Source: Phycisphaerales bacterium | GTDB lineage: Bacteria > Planctomycetota > Phycisphaerae > Tepidisphaerales > Tepidisphaeraceae | Assembly (NCBI GenBank): GCA_020847545.1 | Contig: JADLBV010000043.1 | Coordinates: 1 to 54,004 of the forward strand | Length of the DNA stretch: 54,004 bases | Direction: 5' to 3' | In this document: positions 4,545 to 16,200 of the stretch, in pieces | Position numbering within the stretch: position 1 is the first letter of the stretch | Layout of the letters: each line of letters begins with the position of its first letter | Made by a program: the position numbers and the translations under genes | The notes under the pieces: generated by a model | What the model was told of the DNA's origin: nothing | Databases searched by the model: none | The model's input: the letters and a program-made list of their open reading frames with translations, nothing else

Positions 4545-5724
4545 TCAAGCCCGCCTTCGCCGCAGCAGCGCCAACCCGCCCAGTGTCAACAGCGACAAAC
4601 TCGCCGGCTCTGGTACAGCGACCGTATGCAGCGTGAAATACGCATCCTGGCGAACTCCGGCCGCATCGGTGTTGTAGAACACCGTCGGTGTTGCGTAAGA
4701 GTACGCAAAAACATAGTTCGACCCGTACGCCTCCTGGAAATTTGCTCCCAACATCAGAGGGGTGTCGAATGCGTAATTGACGTTTAATTGATAGGTTCCA
4801 TCCGCCGTGGTGCCGATCGATTCCACCGCCACGACATATTGATTCCCCGGCGTCAACGCCACCGGCGTGCCCAGCGACACCGACACCACATCGCCCGCTC
4901 CTCCGGTCACGGCGGCGTTTTTGTTCAGCAGCACGCCCGACCACAGGTCCGTTTGTGTACTGACATCATACAGATGCAGCCGCAGGTCATCCGCCACCGA
5001 CGCGGCGCCCTTGTACACCTTCATCGCAATCTGATCGACCCCGGTGTTGCTCCCCCATCCCGTGAACGTAAACGACTGCCCTTGCCACACATCCTGCCCA
5101 ATCGTCCGGAAATTTGTCTGCGTATACGGCTGTCCCACCGCCGCAGTGGAGTTGCTGTCGTAAAGGCCCCAGACTTCGGTGTCGGAGTTGTCGCCCCAAC
5201 TGGCGCCTCCGCTGCTGCTGTAACGCGCTGAATAACTGGTGTCCGGCGTCCCATCATGCACATGCGACTGCAACAGCGAAGGGGCGCGGTCCGGCTATAT
5301 AGACCACATTGCTTGGATCCCCATTGGGCACCCGATGAACAAAGTGATAGGTCGATCCGCTGTTCAAAGTAATTGAGGTATTCAACGGCGCGGTAATAAC
5401 CCCGGAGGCAGGTGACCACGAGGCAACCGCCAGATCAACCCCGCTGGCATTTCCAAATCCATCATCAGACTGAATCGCCACTTGCAATGTCGGGCTGCCC
5501 ACCACCGCATTCGTTTTGGTTAACACGCTGTTTACGGAAACAGTCTGGTTGGGCGTAAATCGATAATCCCACAGCCGCCCTGGATCATTTAAAGCAATGC
5601 TGCCGCCATTACCCAGGAATAGCTCCAATCCATACGTATCCACTGCCGCCGACACCTGCCGAGCCATCGACAACGACAATCCTGCGATCCCCGCCAACAA
5701 CAACGATCTGTGCAATGCGTTCAT
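4545..5724 (-). pseudogene. PEP-CTERM sorted surface protein, split by a one-base frameshift
   Basis: Two minus-strand frames form one protein of about 392 residues. The upstream part (from ATG 5724) has a signal peptide (MNALHRSLLLAGIAGLSLSM..VSAA) and a beta-rich domain. The downstream part (to 4545) continues the beta-sandwich and ends with VPEPASLSLLTLGGLALL plus RRRRA, a PEP-CTERM sorting signal recognised by exosortase. The frames join at the GGGG run at 5281-5284 (plus strand). Removing one base there reads YIAGPRPSLLQSHVHDG and restores the full protein; as given, translation stops shortly after the run. It may be a genuine pseudogene, phase variation, or a sequencing error. GGAGG stands 5 nt before the start. 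A TTGCAT/TATAAC promoter and a TTATAAC operator lie upstream, tying it to the GntR regulator at 6041-7162. The function of the ectodomain is not recognised. Confidence 0.85.
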
Positions 5725-5783
5725 ACCGACCTCCGAAAAGAAAATGAAGGGAAATCACCGAACAATTCAATGATTTAGTTATA

Positions 5784-5811
5784 GTTATAACTCTAGTTCA
5801 AGAGAATGCAA
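5784..5811 (-). promoter_or_regulatory. Promoter and operator A of the PEP-CTERM gene
   Basis: On the minus strand TTGCAT (5806-5811), a 16-bp spacer and TATAAC (5784-5789) form a sigma-70-type promoter. The -10 box lies inside the perfect palindrome AGTTATAACT (5783-5792). The plus-strand word TTATAACTCTA (5785-5795) matches 10 of 11 bases of operator B at 7270-7280. Repressor binding here would cover the -10 box. Confidence 0.6.
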
Positions 5812-6040
5812 GAAAAAATTTTTCTGGTACGCGACGCGTTATTTTCATGTATCATAAGCCTAGTATCCGCAATGGTTTGCGCGGACTTTCCTTGAATGAC
5901 AAGATCATCTGGTCTTCGTTGTCATTGCGGATAAGTATGTGTGTGGAGTGATCTTGGAACGCTAGCCAGTCCCAGCCTCTTGAAATACTGGACCAGCAAA
6001 TTGCATTCCTGGTGTTAGAAGTGGAGAGCGTCAATCATTC
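5812..6040. other. Intergenic remainder between PEP-CTERM gene and GntR regulator
   Basis: The whole gap (5725-6040) is 316 nt. Besides operator A, it holds a hairpin AATGACAA/TTGTCATT (5895-5902 with 5919-5926), which lies downstream of the GntR gene and could end its transcript, although it has no clear T-tract. GTCATTG (5921-5927) and CAATGAC (6044-6050) form the ends of a possible degenerate interspersed repeat. A 60-codon minus-strand frame (5852-6034) has no support as a gene. Confidence 0.4.
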
Positions 6041-7162
6041 TCACAATGACAGGGAAGATTTTGCCAGTGCGAGTGTCAAGCCGGGATTGCTTCGGTTGGG
6101 AAATTCTTTCGCCGCTGGCGGCCAAGTCTCGGCGTTTTTGGTGGAGTCCAGCCGCTTCATCAAGGCTTGAACCGCCCACTCGCTCATTTGCTCGACCGGA
6201 ATGATTTCCCCACTGATGTCCGTTCGCCCCGGTGGCACACCGGTGAACAATAAGGATACATCTTCAGGACATGATAATCCCATTGAACGAATGGCATCAC
6301 GTGTTTCCAGCGCCAATTCATAACCGTAGGCCACAAATGCTGTCGGACGCTGAGGTCCTTCCATCGATTGTCGAACGATGTCCTTCGTTTGGTCCTGCTG
6401 AAAATATGGGAATTCCCGGAGATTCCATTCGATTTGATCCAATTGGGACAGGGACATGACCGCCAGCCTCACACCCTGGGTCAAATCCTCAGGAAATGTT
6501 CGACGCAACAAGGTGACTTGGCGATGTCCGTGTTCCACCAGTCGGTCAGCCAGCCACCGCATCGCTCTCGATGTGTCACCAACCACCCGGCCAATGCGGG
6601 GATCATCATATCCAAAATTGATCGCCATCACCGCCATGCCTTCATCCAGCACCGGTTCCAGCCAGGATTGCGGCAAAGGACTCATGATGATAAGCCCCTC
6701 CACATCCTGGCGGCGGACCAATTCTCGCAGTGCGGCCGATGGATCGAGACTACGCTTCAGCATCCCCGATGCCATCAGTAACGGATGAAATTCACTCTGT
6801 TCCATCCCAAGGCCGATACCTTTGAGCAACTGTGAAGAAAAAATGTCCGTCAGGCTGATCAATTCGTTGTATAGCACTCCAATCTGTCGACAGGGGGTCA
6901 ATGGAGAGGGTGGGCGAACAAATGTTCCCCGGCCCTGCATCCGATCGACATACCCCGCCTGTTCAAGCTCGTTCAGGCAACGCCGTGCCGTCGTGCTCGA
7001 GACATGAAATTCCGCTATCAAATCCGATTCCGAAGGAGCCTTTGTCCCGGGCATCAAGTGTCCCTTTTCGATACGCTGCTTGACGGCCTCGAACAATTCC
7101 AGATAAAGCGGCTCCCGCTTCGATATTCGGGGTTTTTGTTTTGTATTGATTTCAATTGCCAT
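6041..7162 (-). CDS. GntR-family repressor with LacI-type sugar-sensing domain (regulator A)
   Basis: The 373-residue protein has a GntR winged helix (about residues 15-85: EPLYLELFEAVKQRIEKG, then PSESDLIAEFHVSSTTARRC and GYVDRMQGRGTFV). It is followed by a periplasmic-binding-protein-like sensor of the LacI/GalR kind (about 95-365, with VEGLIIMSPLP and TAFVAYG). This is the AraR-like architecture, known for repressors of sugar-catabolic genes that release DNA when a sugar binds. It is divergent from the TIM-barrel gene at 7315. Its own promoter is TTGTCA-16-TACAAT (7224-7229 and 7202-7207 read on the minus strand), and an operator-like word covers that -10 box, suggesting autoregulation. 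The last codons and stop fall in a CTGTCATTGTGA segment that resembles one end of a degenerate repeat, so the C-terminus may have been altered by an insertion. Confidence 0.9.
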   Translation of the reverse strand: MAIEINTKQKPRISKREPLYLELFEAVKQRIEKGHLMPGTKAPSESDLIAEFHVSSTTARRCLNELEQAGYVDRMQGRGTFVRPPSPLTPCRQIGVLYNELISLTDIFSSQLLKGIGLGMEQSEFHPLLMASGMLKRSLDPSAALRELVRRQDVEGLIIMSPLPQSWLEPVLDEGMAVMAINFGYDDPRIGRVVGDTSRAMRWLADRLVEHGHRQVTLLRRTFPEDLTQGVRLAVMSLSQLDQIEWNLREFPYFQQDQTKDIVRQSMEGPQRPTAFVAYGYELALETRDAIRSMGLSCPEDVSLLFTGVPPGRTDISGEIIPVEQMSEWAVQALMKRLDSTKNAETWPPAAKEFPNRSNPGLTLALAKSSLSL

Positions 7163-7201
7163 ATTTTATTCGGTCGTTCGCTTCGGCTATATCCGGTGTG
7201 T

Positions 7202-7229
7202 ATTGTAACACTAAGACTAAGCTTGACAA
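7202..7229 (-). promoter_or_regulatory. Promoter of regulator A with operator B2
   Basis: Read on the minus strand, TTGTCA (7224-7229), a 16-bp spacer and TACAAT (7202-7207) form a good promoter. The plus-strand word TTGTAACACTA (7203-7213) matches operator B (TTATAACACTA) at 10 of 11 positions and covers the -10 box. The -35 lies in the palindrome TTGACAAGTCAA (7223-7234), whose other strand offers TTGACA to a divergent promoter. Confidence 0.6.
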
Positions 7230-7254
7230 GTCAAAATCAGGAAATAACATGGGA

Positions 7255-7284
7255 TTGCCATAAATATAGTTATAACACTATATT
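7255..7284 (+). promoter_or_regulatory. Promoter and operator B of the TIM-barrel gene
   Basis: The segment 7264-7283 is a perfect inverted repeat: ATATAGT, 6 nt, ACTATAT. It overlaps a candidate promoter TTGCCA (7255-7260), 18 bp, TATATT (7279-7284), placing the operator between and over the core elements. A second candidate promoter, TTGACA (7223-7228)-16-TAACAT (7245-7250), would have the operator just downstream as a roadblock. Regulator A is transcribed divergently and is the likely ligand. Confidence 0.6.
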
Positions 7285-7314
7285 GGACTGGGTATTCAAT
7301 TATCAGGAGCTGTG

Positions 7315-9015
7315 ATGAAGTTTTATTCCATTGCGACATTGAGTGATTGGTATTTTTTCTTCGGAGCCAACGGCCCTGAAGGTGTAAAACGCATCTGCGA
7401 CAAGGCTGATGAAGCAGGTATTTCTCGATTGTATGTCCGAACTCATGATGGAGGATTGGCCAATTATCCGTCAGTAAATTGCCCTTCGATGCGAGGGCAA
7501 ACTATTCTCCAAAACTACGAGACCTATGGCTCCTATCCACGATCCTATTATCGCTATCTCGAATCGTTGGATTATTCACAGTGGGATCCCATCTCAAGTT
7601 TTCTGGATGCGGGCCGAGAGAAGGGATTGGAAGCGGGGCTGTGGTACACCATCATGGAGGATGACCACGGTGGACATGTCAAATCCGATTTTCTCAAGGC
7701 TCATCCCGAACTTCGATGTGTAAATCGCAAGGGGGAAGCCGTGGACGGCTGCCTGGAATTCTGGTTTGAGCCGGTTCGCGAATATAAGCTCGCCATTCTT
7801 GATGAACTGTTGAAAAAAGGGGCCAAACACATCCTGTTGGACCTGGTTCGGCGCAACGGCACACCCAGTTCCGATGTGGATGGGTTTTATCAATACGGTT
7901 TCAATCCCCAAATCGTGTCGGCTTTTCGGAAACAAACGGGACTGGATCCACGTCGACTATCGCCCGGCAGCGCGGAATGGCATCACTGGGTGGATTTTAT
8001 GAGCAGGCCATATACCGACTTCCTGATCGAGGCATGCAATCGCATCAATGCCCACAAAGCCAGCGCCGAACTGATGACCTGGCCGGTGCATTTGAAGACA
8101 TGGATGGCGATTGATCTGGAAAAAATTCTGGATGCGGGATCGATCGATGCGGTTCATGTTGCCAGCCATGCTTATTCTTATTCGCCGGCAGACCTGGATC
8201 GCCAGCTTTCATCGCTCCAACCGCAGGTTCGTTCGCGACCGGTGAAGATCGTCCCCTCAATTTGCGGTTATGAAGGACTGGTCGCATCCGGTCTGGATGA
8301 TTTCTTTGCCGCGGCTCAGGATCGGGATATCCATACGCTTGTCCTGCATGAATCCGAATCGCTTCTCCGCAATCGAATGAGCACGCGGTTTCGTGCCATG
8401 GCGTTTGGGGTTCCTCACTTCAAAAGAGCCTTGCACTCGCGTCAAGCATCATCGGTTGACTGGTCACTGGCGACGAAATGTTCTGGATTTTTGCGCGGAT
8501 ACAACGAGTCCACACTCGAAACAGACCAACTTACGGAAATCCAGGTTGCTCATACCACGGATGAGCTGTGTGTTCGATTTACATGCCACGAACGCAATGT
8601 GTCGGCCCTGTTGCCGGTGCCCAGTTGGCCGGCGGACAATTACAATGTGAAACAGCTTGAAGCGCGCCTCTGGTGGAACCCGAAAGAAAGTGTTCATCTG
8701 TTCCTTTCGGTGCCCGGACAATTCAACGATTACTTCCATTTCCTCCTGGATCCATCCAATGCCTCCGGCCAGGAACAGCGGCTAAGCGAGCGATGGCAGG
8801 GCATCTGGAAGCATGATGTGGAAATTAAACCCTCGGCCTGGTGTGCCAACTTCCGAATACCTTTCAAGACGCTGGGGATTCATCCCGAAAAGGGGATGAA
8901 AATCGCAATTCATGCGGTCCGCGCCCAGGCCAATCCGGTACAGATCACCATGTTGAACCTGGCCGATACCACGATTCTCAATCCGGATGAATTTGGTTTC
9001 CTTTTTTTGGATTGA
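7315..9015 (+). CDS. Cytoplasmic TIM-barrel glycoside-hydrolase-like protein with C-terminal CBM9-like domain
   Basis: ATG 7315 is chosen because AGGAG (7305-7309) stands 5 nt before it; an in-frame GTG at 7312 is an alternative. The protein has 566 residues and no signal peptide. The first two thirds look like a (beta/alpha)8 barrel of an uncharacterised glycosidase-like type: repeated beta-strand ends such as GISRLYVRTHD, GLEAGLWYTIMEDD, HILLDLVRRNG and IVPSICGYEG, with many acidic residues at strand ends. The last third (about 380-565, with LEARLWWNPKESVHLFLS and NFRIPFKTLGI) resembles the CBM9/DOMON-like sandwich often attached to planctomycete glycan enzymes. The exact family and substrate are not recognised. 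It is the first gene of the regulator A transcript, so it is probably induced by the sugar sensed by that repressor and acts on imported oligosaccharides. Confidence 0.8.
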   Translation: MKFYSIATLSDWYFFFGANGPEGVKRICDKADEAGISRLYVRTHDGGLANYPSVNCPSMRGQTILQNYETYGSYPRSYYRYLESLDYSQWDPISSFLDAGREKGLEAGLWYTIMEDDHGGHVKSDFLKAHPELRCVNRKGEAVDGCLEFWFEPVREYKLAILDELLKKGAKHILLDLVRRNGTPSSDVDGFYQYGFNPQIVSAFRKQTGLDPRRLSPGSAEWHHWVDFMSRPYTDFLIEACNRINAHKASAELMTWPVHLKTWMAIDLEKILDAGSIDAVHVASHAYSYSPADLDRQLSSLQPQVRSRPVKIVPSICGYEGLVASGLDDFFAAAQDRDIHTLVLHESESLLRNRMSTRFRAMAFGVPHFKRALHSRQASSVDWSLATKCSGFLRGYNESTLETDQLTEIQVAHTTDELCVRFTCHERNVSALLPVPSWPADNYNVKQLEARLWWNPKESVHLFLSVPGQFNDYFHFLLDPSNASGQEQRLSERWQGIWKHDVEIKPSAWCANFRIPFKTLGIHPEKGMKIAIHAVRAQANPVQITMLNLADTTILNPDEFGFLFLD

Positions 9016-9095
9016 ACGGATTCTATTTTGGGACAATTTGTTCCGCTGCCCAATGGCCTACGGCACAAATAAAGGTTGGATATCAAGTTGATTGT

Positions 9096-9113
9096 ATGTT
9101 ATGATTATAACAT
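9096..9113 (+). promoter_or_regulatory. Operator C overlapping the start of the dehydrogenase gene
   Basis: ATGTTAT and ATAACAT form a perfect 7-bp inverted repeat around 4 nt (9096-9102 and 9107-9113). It contains TTATAACA (9105-9112), the core shared with operators A and B. It ends on the preferred ATG (9112), so a bound repressor would sit on the start codon. Confidence 0.5.
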
Positions 9114-10125
9114 GGTGGTCAAGAAAATCAGCTTGTGGATTCCTCAGGAAATACAACACAAGGTCTTTTCTGAAAAAGACTTGATCACTTTAACATCCGC
9201 GCACAATGTACGACTTGCCTCAGGGTCTGAGGTTGAACTTCCAGGACAATGGCCAACATTGACATCACAGGCTGAGATCGTGGTGACAGGGTGGGATTCG
9301 CCGCCAATATCTGAGGCGATGCTGGATCAGGCAAAATCATTGCAATTGATTGTTCATGCGGCCGGATCGATCAAACATCTCCTGCCCGCCGGCGTATGGG
9401 AGCGGAATATTCGTGTTGCCACCAACAACTATGCGTTAGGTGTCGGGGTGGCGGAAACGACGCTGGGAATGATCATCGCGGGATTGAAGGGATTCATTCC
9501 GTGCAACGCCTTGACGCACGATGGAGGATGGAAAAGCAACGGAACCAGTCTGCCCGGATTCAGTGTGCGTGAAGTATTTGACGTCACGATAGGATTGGTG
9601 GGACTGGGTCAGGTTGCGCGACATCTTCTGGGGTTGCTCAAGGGGTTTGAAGTGGCGGTGGTGGCGTATGATCCCGTAATTGATCCGGCCGAGGCCGATG
9701 CGATGGGGGTGGAATTGGTGGAACTGAATGAATTGTTCGCACGAAGCGATGTCGTGAGCATTCACGCCCCCGCACTGCCGATGACACGCCACATGATCGG
9801 GAATTCACAACTTCGGCTGCTGAAAGACGATTCGATTCTCATCAACACCGCGCGTGGCAATGTCATCGACGACTCCGCCTTGATTGAGGAATTGAAAAGA
9901 CGACGCATTTGGACATTCCTGGATGTTACCGATCCGGAGCCACCGGCGGTGGATCATCCGTTCCGTTCGATGCCTCATGTCATTTTGACGCCGCATATCG
10001 CCGGCGCGATCTCCAACGGCATTCGGCGCATCGGACGAAATGTGGTGCGGCAGATTGGAGAATTCGTGGATGGTTCGGAAGTCAACGGTGAAGTTACGGC
10101 CGAACGCGCGATTCTGATGGCGTGA
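9112..10125 (+). CDS. D-isomer-specific 2-hydroxyacid dehydrogenase
   Basis: This NAD-dependent dehydrogenase of 337 residues belongs to the phosphoglycerate/lactate dehydrogenase family. The Rossmann motif GLVGLGQVA is at 161-169, with Ala in place of the third glycine. The catalytic residues are visible: Arg248 in NTARGNV, Glu in DVTDPEPP and His295 in TPHIAGA. The full frame opens at TTG 9076, but ATG 9112 (MVVKKISLWIP) fits the family start better. No good Shine-Dalgarno precedes it, and an operator palindrome overlaps it. It may oxidise or reduce a sugar-derived 2-hydroxy/2-keto acid in the pathway controlled by regulator A; that substrate is inference. Confidence 0.88.
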   Translation: MVVKKISLWIPQEIQHKVFSEKDLITLTSAHNVRLASGSEVELPGQWPTLTSQAEIVVTGWDSPPISEAMLDQAKSLQLIVHAAGSIKHLLPAGVWERNIRVATNNYALGVGVAETTLGMIIAGLKGFIPCNALTHDGGWKSNGTSLPGFSVREVFDVTIGLVGLGQVARHLLGLLKGFEVAVVAYDPVIDPAEADAMGVELVELNELFARSDVVSIHAPALPMTRHMIGNSQLRLLKDDSILINTARGNVIDDSALIEELKRRRIWTFLDVTDPEPPAVDHPFRSMPHVILTPHIAGAISNGIRRIGRNVVRQIGEFVDGSEVNGEVTAERAILMA

Positions 10126-10255
10126 ATATAACGAATAAGATAGATTCTAAGCCCTAATAACCAAGCAATTCGCTGTTTATGCATTTTTTGACATCTGCCC
10201 TCGGTCGCTCTTGGCCGGGCGGCTCGTGTCGTCCCATAAAAAAATTGGAATTCTC

Positions 10256-10291
10256 TTGCATTGATACGAAAGTCAGCGTATATTTATACGC
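10256..10291 (+). promoter_or_regulatory. Promoter with palindromic operator of regulator B
   Basis: TTGCAT (10256-10261), a 17-bp spacer and TATATT (10279-10284) form a promoter. The perfect inverted repeat GCGTATA-TT-TATACGC (10276-10291) covers the -10 box. A direct repeat GATACGAAAGT flanks it at 10263-10273 and 10296-10306. The layout is typical of a self-regulating GntR repressor, and the operator differs from those of regulator A. Confidence 0.7.
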
Positions 10292-10317
10292 GAAAGATAC
10301 GAAAGTTCTTGAATCAC

Positions 10318-11478
10318 ATGGCCGTTAAGATCAAAAAACAACGCATTTATGAGAGTTTGGTGGAGGATATTCGCCTCCAGATCAACACGGGGGTTTTGCG
10401 CGCGGACAACTATTTGTTGCCTGAATATGAGTTGGCGAAGAAATATCAGATGAGTTCCCATGCCGTCCGTCTGGGGTTGTCCCGGCTGGAGGATGAGGGG
10501 TTGATCCGGCGGTATCAGGGGCGCGGGACGGTTGTTTTGTCGCGACAGGATGAAGAGGAATCGACGCCGACCAATCAAAATATCGCGGTGATCTTTCAAG
10601 GAAGGGTGCGTGATCCTTCCACGGCCGAGGAATTGGACAATTTGCAACAGGCGTTTCAGAGCCAGGGGTATGGCACAACGCTTTATGTGGCCGACCGCGA
10701 CAAGCAGAAGGAGGCCAAAATTGTCCAGCGTTTGGCGGCCGAGGGGGTGCCGGGGCTGGTGTTGTATTCGGCTCATCCATCGAACAGTTATGCCCATCTT
10801 CAGGCCGCCATTGATTCGGGGATGAAGATCGTGGTCTTTGACCATGATTTCCCCGATCTGGCGTGCAATTTTGTCGGGATCGACGATCAACTGGCCTCCT
10901 ATGAGGCGACCGAACATCTGATTCGCCACGGTTGCCGGGAGATGATCCTGGTCAATTCCCAGCGCAACTGGACGACGCACGTTCTGCGTGAGCGTGGATT
11001 TGAACAGGCGATGGAGAAACTGGCGAGTGGGTTGGCACGACGCGTGATTCGTCTGCCCGATTGCCAGACCTTTGAAGAACTTGGCGAATGCCTGCGGCAG
11101 GAATTGACGCCGATGTTGGCTGAATTGCAAAAGCCGGTGGGGATCGTCGCCTGGTGGGATGAGGTGGCGTTGCATGCGATGAAGGTGATGGCCGATGCCG
11201 GCTGGTCGGTGCCGCGGGATGCGAAAGTGGTTGGTTTTTCCAATGATCTCAGCGGCGCGCTGGCGGATGTGCCTTTGACGACGATGGAAATCCCGCGCGA
11301 GCAAATCGCCCGGCTGGCGGCGGCGTCGTTGGTTCATCAGATGCGCGATCCAACGCTTCGGCCGCAACGTATCAGACTCAAGGCGCGGATGATCCTCCGC
11401 CAGTCTTGCGGAACCTATCGGCCGGCCGGTGTCGATGAAGCGGTCGAGGAATCAATTCTCAGTCCCGTATCCACGTAA
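10318..11478 (+). CDS. GntR-family repressor with LacI-type sensor (regulator B)
   Basis: ATG 10318 (MAVKIKKQRIYESLVEDIR) begins directly at the winged helix; the longer frame from 10261 would start inside the promoter. The protein has 386 residues: a GntR DNA-binding domain (about 8-75, with YLLPEYELAKKYQMSSHAVR and DEGLIRRYQGRGTVV) and a LacI/GalR-type ligand domain (about 85-365, with GVPGLVLYSAHPSN, GIVAWWDEVALHAMK and VVGFSNDLSG). It heads the second half of the glycan locus. The downstream gene starts 13 nt after its stop with its Shine-Dalgarno touching the stop, so regulator and surface proteins are co-transcribed. The effector is probably a mono- or oligosaccharide from the glycan attacked by the downstream enzymes. 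Confidence 0.9.
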   Translation: MAVKIKKQRIYESLVEDIRLQINTGVLRADNYLLPEYELAKKYQMSSHAVRLGLSRLEDEGLIRRYQGRGTVVLSRQDEEESTPTNQNIAVIFQGRVRDPSTAEELDNLQQAFQSQGYGTTLYVADRDKQKEAKIVQRLAAEGVPGLVLYSAHPSNSYAHLQAAIDSGMKIVVFDHDFPDLACNFVGIDDQLASYEATEHLIRHGCREMILVNSQRNWTTHVLRERGFEQAMEKLASGLARRVIRLPDCQTFEELGECLRQELTPMLAELQKPVGIVAWWDEVALHAMKVMADAGWSVPRDAKVVGFSNDLSGALADVPLTTMEIPREQIARLAAASLVHQMRDPTLRPQRIRLKARMILRQSCGTYRPAGVDEAVEESILSPVST

Positions 11479-13231: not shown

Positions 13232-16200
13232 ATGAATTGGAAAAATCCTCTGATTACAATGGTGATGATGATCGGCCTGGCGAGGCCGATTCTGGCCGCC
13301 GATCAGCCGATTGTCATTCCGCAGCGGCCGGACCCGCCGATCACGGTGGATGGGCGGCTGGACGACTGGGCGTCGGTGCCTTCCAAGGTGGAGATGGATC
13401 GGCCGGATCAGGTGGTTTATCAGCCGGAGAACTGGAAGTCGGCCGATGATTTGAGCGCGGTGGTGCGATTTTGCTGGCGGTCGGCCGGGTTGTATGTCGC
13501 GGCCGAGGTGCGCGACGATGTTTTTTCCAACAGCGGTTCGGGGGAGAATTCGTTTCGGGGGGATATTCTGGAGCTTTATTTTGATGCCGCGCCGACACGC
13601 GATCCATCGCGTGATGAATTTGGAGGGGGGCAGACACATCTGCTGCTGAGTCCCGGAAATTTGATGGATGACCGCCCGCCGGGGGCGTTTGGGAGGGTGA
13701 ATGCGGAGGTGTATCGAATATATCCGGATCACAAAAGCATCTCGGATGCCTCCATCGCGTCGGTGAAGACACAAAAAGGGTGGACACTGGAATGCATTAT
13801 TCCGTGGGAGGATTTGGGCGTTACGGGGCAGGTTGGCAGGGGGAGGGTGTTTGGTCTGGAAGTCGCCCTGGATGATTGTGACTCTTCCGCCAGTCGACAG
13901 GAAAAGATGATGACGATTTCCACCCGTGCGTGGAAACATCACAGCCGCGGTCGGCTGATCGAAGCGGTGACGGCGGATGCGGGTGGGACCTATGTGTTGG
14001 CCGAGGCGCCAAAGCCGGTGGCGTTGCTGAACAATGCCGTGATTGCACCCAAAGGGGAGATCACAAGGACATTCGATTCTACGCCAAGGGATGATGGCCT
14101 TTCGCCGGCACTCTGGATTCGCGCCCGTCTGCAGGCGGACAAAAACGCCGGCGACACGTTCGCATTGAACGTCTATGTCAACGATCAGAAGATTGACGGG
14201 TCGCGGATATTGAACAAGCCGATCATGATGCGCACGCTGGATGGAGGGACGATCTCCATCTTCTCGGCCGGCAGTTTTGGATTTCGCATTCCCTACGCCT
14301 CCACTTATGACGAGGCGAATTTGTCGCAGGCGCAGGGCAATCCCTATGCGCGGTTTGATTCAACCGAACCACGAACCGATTTCCTGATCGATCTATCGGG
14401 AATGTTGAAAAACGGCAAAAACACGCTTCGGCTGGTCAGTGCCGATCCTTCGGTGGATCGGGCGATGCGCGTTGAGGCGGAGCTGAGACAAGTCGAACCG
14501 AAAAAGGAGGCCGTCAAACGGGAAATGATCCCAGCGAAGGATTATTTCACACCCGAACAGCCCAAGGTGGAGATTAAGTTTCAGGAGTCGGCCGATGCGC
14601 GGATCGCTGTGAACGTTGGCAAAACAACGTATCAGTGCCGCAGTTCGTTCTCGATTCCCGGCGGGCAATGGGTGCATGGCGGCAACAAGTATTTCACACA
14701 TTCGCGAAAGATTCACGAGGAAGACGGCATCCTCGTCGTCGAGGACTCCTTTACCAATCTCGGCGACCAGCCGCTGGGGATCATGCAGCGGCATGAAATC
14801 ACGGCGGGCCAAAAGCAGGCGAATTTTTATCTCAACGGCCTCAAACGCCCGCCGAACCTGCCGGGATATTTTCAATCCAACAACCCCACTTCCTTCATGG
14901 GGAGCGAGGGTGGCGGCATCGGGATGTTGCCGCTGGATGATGTCTTTTTGATTCATGGTGAAAACTATATCGGTGGTGATGACACGATCGGTCTGTGTGA
15001 TCGTGTTCTGGTGATCGGCCCCAAGGCATCCCACACGGTGAAATGGGCGCTGGCGGGGTCGGCCGATGGGGATTACTGGAATTTTCTGAACGCGGTTCGT
15101 CGATATCTGAAGGTCAACTTTACGCTGACCGGACCCGGCGCGTTCATGCGGATGTACCCACCCTACATCGATTGGCCGGTGGAAAGGATCCGCGAACAAT
15201 TTCTCAATCGCAGCGCGGTTTACGGGATGAACGCCCCATCGTTCAGATTGACCTACAAGGGAAAGACATTGCCTTATCTGATCAATCATGGTCAGGCGGC
15301 GATGGATGTCACCGAGGAGGCGGCCGGAGCGAAGAAATGGATAGAGGCACTGCCGGGGTTGAAAGTCATTCAATATTTCGCCTGTTTCATCGATTCCAGC
15401 GATGATGGGGACACGCGGTTCGCGGATGCGGCCATTCTGGACGCGGCCGGGAAACCAACCAATTATGGGAGTTATTATTATCCGCTGTTCATTCCGACAT
15501 TGAGCAACGACTATGGCAAATCACAGGAACAACTGCTCGATAAACTGCTGAGCAAGATCGATCTCGACGGCATTTTCTGGGATGAAATCTCCTACAGCAT
15601 GGTGCAATATCACTATGGCAAACCGTGGGATGGCGTCTCCGGCGACATCGACATGAAGACGTTCGAGGTCAAACAGCTCAAGTCATCCGTGTCGCTTGTT
15701 TCAAGGGATTGGCGGATCAAACAGGCGAGGAAAATCGTCGAACATGGCCGCACGCTGATCGCCAACGGGCCGATAGACGCACAGGAACTGCGTGACATGC
15801 ACCTGATGGCTTTCACCGAGACCGGCCAGGGGAGTTTTTGCGCCCGCACGCAGTTGTATACACCCATCGCGCTGGGTGATCATCTGTCCGAAGTGACCGA
15901 GGCCGATGCCTATCACGGGATGCTCAACGCATTGGATTACGGGTGTGTCTACTACTGGTACAGCGAGGATGTGAACACCACCCATAAAACCCTCACCGAG
16001 CATATGTTCCCGCTGACGCCCTTGCGGCTGGGGCCGGGTTTTCTGTTCGGCCAGGAGCGCATCCTGACCCGCATCAGCGGTTATTTCGGATGGAATGATT
16101 CATCCGACTTTGATGTCCACATCTACGATGAAAATGGTGTTCTGCGAACCGATCAGAAAACCGTGCGCGTGATTGTTGATGGAGACGCATACGCGGCCAT

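Follow-up and report, generated by a model that had tools for sequence, protein, structure and literature searches.

A rare palindromic operator and the small regulon predicted for a GntR/LacI-type regulator of an uncultured Phycisphaerales bacterium

A stretch of 54,004 nucleotides from a Phycisphaerales bacterium (contig JADLBV010000043.1, assembly GCA_020847545.1; hereafter the window) carries genes for an exported PEP-CTERM protein, a regulator of the GntR/LacI type (regulator A, or RegA), a TIM-barrel protein and a 2-hydroxyacid dehydrogenase. A preliminary description of this DNA proposed that four sites with a shared TTATAAC core define the regulon of RegA. The full element is longer than that core, a 16-bp palindrome, TAKWGTTATAACWMTA, whose central GTTATAAC is symmetrical about the junction of GTTA and TAAC. 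It stands at the promoters of the PEP-CTERM and TIM-barrel genes, and in a relative of the same genus it accompanies the same genes at three separate places. We consider it probable that RegA is an AraR-like GntR/LacI repressor that occludes these promoters through the palindrome and is released by a sugar-like effector. The regulon is real, but of the four proposed sites only two hold up, the third being doubtful and the fourth wrong; it appears to be an ordinary local regulon of the sugar type with a new operator sequence. The features under discussion are as follows.

4545-5724, minus strand: PEP-CTERM exported protein gene, in two frames (5254-5724 and 4545-5273)
5780-5795: predicted operator O1, TATAGTTATAACTCTA (TAGAGTTATAACTATA on the minus strand), covering the -10 of the PEP-CTERM gene; matches the 16-mer with 0 mismatches
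6041-7162, minus strand: RegA, with a GntR winged-helix domain (residues 19-82) and a LacI-type sugar-binding Peripla_BP_3 domain (residues 205-344), both from Pfam
7198-7213: candidate weak operator O3, TAGTGTTACAATACAC on the minus strand, overlying the extended -10 in the regulator's promoter; 4 mismatches
7265-7280: predicted operator O2, TATAGTTATAACACTA, in the TIM-barrel promoter between -35 and -10; 0 mismatches
7315-9015, plus strand: TIM-barrel gene, encoding a cytoplasmic glycoside-hydrolase-like barrel with a CBM9-like C-terminal domain
9096-9113: ATGTTAT GATT ATAACAT, the fourth site of the preliminary description, rejected as an operator
9112-10125, plus strand: D-isomer-specific 2-hydroxyacid dehydrogenase gene (Pfam PF02826; PDB matches to glyoxylate reductase and phosphoglycerate dehydrogenase)

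Two strong operator sites, a weak candidate and a rejected site in the window

All four of the core strings listed in the preliminary description are present in the window at the positions given for them. Superposing the sites at 5785 and 7270 revealed that the TTATAAC core is half of a larger element, the full form of which, TATAGTTA followed by TAAC[T/A]CTA, occupies 5780-5795 and 7265-7280. O1 and O2 are identical at 15 of 16 bases, a degree of similarity that none of 2000 dinucleotide shuffles of both intergenic regions reached (maximum 14), and in each the GT and AC are four bases apart (GT-N4-AC). Motif frequencies were obtained by pattern searches of the whole 3.75-Mb genome, which contains two zero-mismatch copies of TAKWGTTATAACWMTA, both in the window, and no one-mismatch copies. 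The 11-mer TTRTAACWCTA, which had been put forward for a genome scan, gave an unremarkable count (four matches, against three for the reversed pattern used as a control), but three of its matches fall within 1.5 kb of each other in the window; thus, it is the clustering of the 11-mer that is unusual and not its number. An exact 11-mer match on another contig (C154:27051) has no regulon gene nearby and was taken as a chance occurrence. WGTTATAACW sites before a modA gene (contig C69) and a nagR-like GntR gene (contig C106) were not accepted as extra targets, as their flanks differ, and the relative keeps the C106 site in a distinct form of its own.

The 16-mer was also compared with 253 control upstream regions, most of them from loci of both genomes that were chosen by regulator homology and not by motif; the remaining regions were taken from parts of the window other than 4-10.2 kb. 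None of the 253 had a best match within two mismatches, one was within three, 17 (6.7%) were within four and 78 (31%) were within five. The control set has a mean G+C of 51% versus 37-39% in the tested intergenic regions, so its rates may be somewhat low; composition-preserving shuffles agree with it, giving 0.066 for the site at 7203 and 0.30 for that at 9105.

O1 and O2 overlap core promoter elements; overlap with a core element or a start had been claimed for all of the sites. The PEP-CTERM promoter on the minus strand consists of TTGCAT (5811-5806), a 16-bp spacer and TATAAC (5789-5784), and O1 covers the -10; the PEP-CTERM promoter of the relative is arranged likewise. In the TIM-barrel promoter, TTGCCA (7255-7260) and TATATT (7279-7284) are separated by 18 bp, and O2 occupies the spacer and extends into the beginning of the -10. 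Since a promoter scan found 5 promoter-like sites overall versus 4.8 in shuffled sequence, these hexamers are assigned by position and conservation and are not proof of promoters. A perfect 7+6+7 inverted repeat does exist at 7264-7283, but it is centred 1 bp away from the point of symmetry common to the other strong sites, and thus the repeat is probably incidental.

O3 is marginal and is at best a possible operator at the regulator's own promoter (TTGTCA at 7229-7224, 16 bp, TACAAT at 7207-7202). Its right half-site, TAACACTA, is perfect (approximately 0.01 in shuffles), and the corresponding promoter in the relative has six mismatches. The site at 9096-9113 differs from the 16-mer at five positions, which is the chance level, and its GT and AC follow a GT-N10-AC spacing instead of GT-N4-AC. 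The dehydrogenase of the window therefore has no recognizable operator of its own, contrary to the assertion that every expected target has one. The 9096-9113 site contains TATGAT (9100-9105), located 17 bases after TGGATA and ending six bases before the dehydrogenase ATG at 9112, and it is better read as the -10 region of that gene, perhaps for a leaderless transcript. The relative's regulator promoter (contig C44, approximately 13736-13755) has a similar layout, with a TATAAT about 7 bases before the likely ATG, and may likewise give rise to a leaderless transcript.

Conservation of the operator at unlinked genes of a relative

The relative, Phycisphaerales bacterium SJ572 (the assembly with contig JADYZN010000067.1; genome G001, with the window's genome as G000), belongs to the same genus and has the orthologous genes on three contigs: the regulator on C44, the PEP-CTERM gene on C24, and the TIM-barrel and dehydrogenase genes, which are divergent there, on C67. 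As the consensus derives solely from the window, matches to it in the relative are an independent test. The best two matches are C24:2539, which has no mismatches and lies 5' of the PEP-CTERM ortholog, and C44:14892, which has one mismatch and lies 50 bp 3' of the regulator gene. Four matches have two mismatches. One of these, C67:50267 (TATAGTTATAACGTTA), lies alone in the region from which the TIM-barrel and dehydrogenase genes diverge, so that the dehydrogenase of the relative gets an operator through a site common to both genes; another, C39:117270, is in the promoter of a different GntR/LacI paralog; and the remaining two, on C59 and C34, are within coding sequence and were rejected as operators. 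The comparison of orthologous intergenic regions that had been suggested as a check therefore finds the motif at the PEP-CTERM gene, the regulator locus and the TIM-barrel/dehydrogenase pair.

In the PEP-CTERM promoter, TAGAGTTATAACTATAAC and the TTGCATT -35 are identical in the two genomes. Conserved elements that are prominent against the largely diverged remainder of this promoter are an 18-base operator block, the -35 together with its A/T tract, and the ribosome-binding site. For the promoters of the TIM-barrel gene and the regulator, there is no clear alignment between the window and the relative beyond the site. Protein identity between the two is 76-79% for the PEP-CTERM protein, 55% for the TIM-barrel protein, 54% for the dehydrogenase and 45% for the regulator. 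Given such low protein identity and promoters that do not align, retention of the motif is not a mere lack of divergence. Most other GntR/LacI orthologs of the two species are 76-90% identical versus 45-55% for RegA, the TIM-barrel protein and the dehydrogenase, and the low identity of this set may reflect separate acquisition or fast evolution.

RegA as the probable repressor, and its rivals

RegA has an N-terminal GntR winged helix (PF00392, E 1.1e-17) and a C-terminal effector domain of the LacI/periplasmic-binding type (PF13377, E 3.4e-11). Its sequence matches in the PDB include NagR/YvoA, AraR and PurR, with the HutC regulators of the NagR/YvoA type being the best matches for the DNA-binding domain and PurR matching the effector domain. 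Although the RegA orthologs are 45% identical overall, they agree at 23 of 25 positions in the helix-turn-helix and have identical recognition helices (SSTTARRCL). Among 55 regulators recovered from both genomes, the TTARR helix occurs only in RegA and in one paralog pair (C18 in the window's genome and C39 in the relative), and the same proteins are the only ones whose loci have a site within two mismatches. No such site was found for approximately 30 more distant relatives of RegA with other recognition helices.

In the mechanism that we favor, a RegA dimer would bind the palindrome formed by the half-sites TAKWGTTA and TAACWMTA, with GT and AC four bases apart. A location at the -10 or in the -35/-10 spacer is typical for the operator of a repressor that keeps RNA polymerase off the promoter, and protein bound over the -10 of the PEP-CTERM gene or in the spacer of the TIM-barrel unit, which may include the dehydrogenase, would block RNA polymerase in the same manner. 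The ligand domain points to an inducer, a sugar or comparable small molecule, that would release the repressor. RegA may also weakly regulate its own gene through the half-site at 7198-7213.

The architecture of the system resembles several known ones. GntR operators follow the pattern GT-Nx-AC, with x = 4 for the majority of sites of the HutC type (PMC4494728), and the AraR box, with GTaCGTAc, is spaced likewise (PMC4218819); the strong sites conform to this spacing whereas the 9105 site does not. AraR of Bacillus subtilis, which represents a minor subfamily of GntR, likewise combines a GntR winged helix with a LacI-type effector domain and acts from palindromic 16-bp GT-N4-AC operators at the promoters of several units, with sugar relieving repression (PMC4218819). 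For RegA, such operators are found at O1, O2 and the three sites of the relative. The half-site here is TAKWGTTA in contrast to ATWTGTAC for AraR, and the targets are a PEP-CTERM protein, a GHL10-like barrel and a 2-hydroxyacid dehydrogenase. RegA retains the equivalent of Arg45 of AraR, but the position of the base-contacting Arg41 is a Ser (SSTTARR), and thus we claim no orthology with AraR, only the same domain build and mode of action. The HutC subfamily (NagR/YvoA and DasR) shares the GT-N4-AC spacing (PMC4494728) and gives the best PDB sequence matches of the DNA-binding domain, but RegA has Peripla_BP_3 in place of the UTRA effector domain and the central dinucleotide of its operator is AT instead of TA. 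Local sugar repressors of the LacI family, such as PurR and RbsR, share the C-terminal ligand-binding domain and small local regulons with RegA, and differ in having a LacI headpiece where RegA has a GntR winged helix.

Several points weigh against RegA as the repressor of a conserved regulon. The Ser at the Arg41 position means that its DNA contacts must differ in detail from those of AraR. The site at the regulator locus of the relative (C44:14892-14907) is a perfect AGTGTTATAACACT palindrome that follows TTGACA...CAATAC, but it is 3' of the regulator gene and no gene follows it before a convergent methylase-like gene; it looks like an orphan operator-promoter, perhaps left from a lost target. 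Only one relative carries the system, so that conservation is a two-genome comparison; no third species was found among 397 genomes of the class (TIM-barrel protein), 392 genomes of the phylum (two-sequence profile) or 60 relatives (RegA). Finally, the C18/C39 paralog could bind the sites too.

This paralog is the strongest competitor. Binding of the sites by the C18 regulator, alone or in addition to RegA, is unlikely but deserves consideration, as it has the same TTARR helix, is present in both genomes with 90% identity, and has a conserved promoter block of its own within two mismatches of the consensus. RegA, on the other hand, has its gene flanked by both target units in the window and carries a site at its own locus in the relative, whereas the C18 gene heads its own PEP-CTERM/pseudopilin cassette and its site in the window's genome, GCTATAAT, is without the GTTATAAC core. 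A still less probable explanation is that the shared core is mostly the sigma-70 -10 (TATAAC, TACAAT or TATGAT) of several promoters in AT-rich DNA and has no specific regulator. The core does overlap or adjoin a plausible -10 at all four places, and the similarity of the 7203 and 9105 sites is no greater than promoters often show, but a common -10 fits poorly with the lack of any control promoter within two mismatches, with palindromic flanks that are kept beyond the -10 in the PEP-CTERM promoters of both species, and with the recurrence of the motif at unlinked orthologs. Least probable is the original model of four equivalent operators with regulator autoregulation and a separate dehydrogenase site, for although its strings and a perfect 7203 half-site are present and paired sites near each operon are known in divergons for GntR regulators (PMC4494728), 9105 is at the chance level with a 10-bp instead of a 4-bp spacing, and 7203 is marginal and not kept in the relative. 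What stands of the original proposal is a small regulon of three transcription units, unlinked in the relative and each with an operator there, to which RegA is predicted to bind.

Target genes and the paralog family

Pfam gave no match for the TIM-barrel protein itself, but a paralog in the genome matches GHL10. An AlphaFold model from a two-sequence alignment (predicted local distance difference test score, pLDDT, 54.6) gave Foldseek matches to GH156, GH191 and PelA barrels and a CBM9-like C-terminal domain, but with a model of such low confidence these matches are only a hint of the fold. The most plausible role is the handling of one particular carbohydrate. The TIM-barrel and dehydrogenase genes are separated by 96 bp in which no terminator-like site was found, and thus transcription from the TIM-barrel promoter could extend into the dehydrogenase, which is possibly cotranscribed. 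The PEP-CTERM gene changes frame near 5254-5273 while the relative has one intact frame of approximately 395 amino acids, and the change may be a genuine frameshift or an assembly with a sequencing error.

Both genomes encode several dozen paralogs of the GntR/LacI type, some beside PEP-CTERM, pseudopilin or carbohydrate-active genes. Regulator B (10318-11478) is one such protein in the window; its promoter region (10243-10330) has TTGCAT followed by a palindrome, GCGTATATTTATACGC, over the -10 with flanking GATACGAAAG repeats, and the relative shares the -35 and repeats and, to a lesser degree, the palindrome. Another operator-like block, overlapping and conserved, lies 5' of the TTARR-containing C18/C39 paralog (C18:50276-50297 in the window's genome and C39:117270-117291 in the relative). 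At C106:1138-1147 of the window's genome, TGTTATAACA is immediately 5' of a GntR gene, after which come nagA- and nagB-like genes; this block, kept as TTGTCATAACAA in the relative, is likely a NagR-type operator. The same TGTTATAACA at C69:37193-37202, shortly 5' of the modA-like gene, is possibly a molybdate-regulator site. The operator-like palindromes of the other paralogs are not uniform enough to claim a general rule. A tentative idea, which we hold to be somewhat less than even in likelihood, is that the paralogs are parallel switches built on a common promoter layout, in which the -35 often resembles TTGCAT or TTGACA, each with a private operator at or close to the -10 whose sequence tracks the recognition helix; RegA and C18, the only two with TTARR, would then be the first readable entry of such a code.

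Our literature search found no work on GntR regulons in uncultured Phycisphaerae, the regulons of which are almost undescribed, and the operator sequence presented here is new. It can be assigned with some confidence because the target genes lie apart in the sister species and yet have kept the operator. Through this operator, an uncharacterised enzyme resembling glycosidases and a dehydrogenase are linked with an exported PEP-CTERM protein in a single functional unit. It also provides an entry point for pairing recognition helices with operators across a large family of paralogs.

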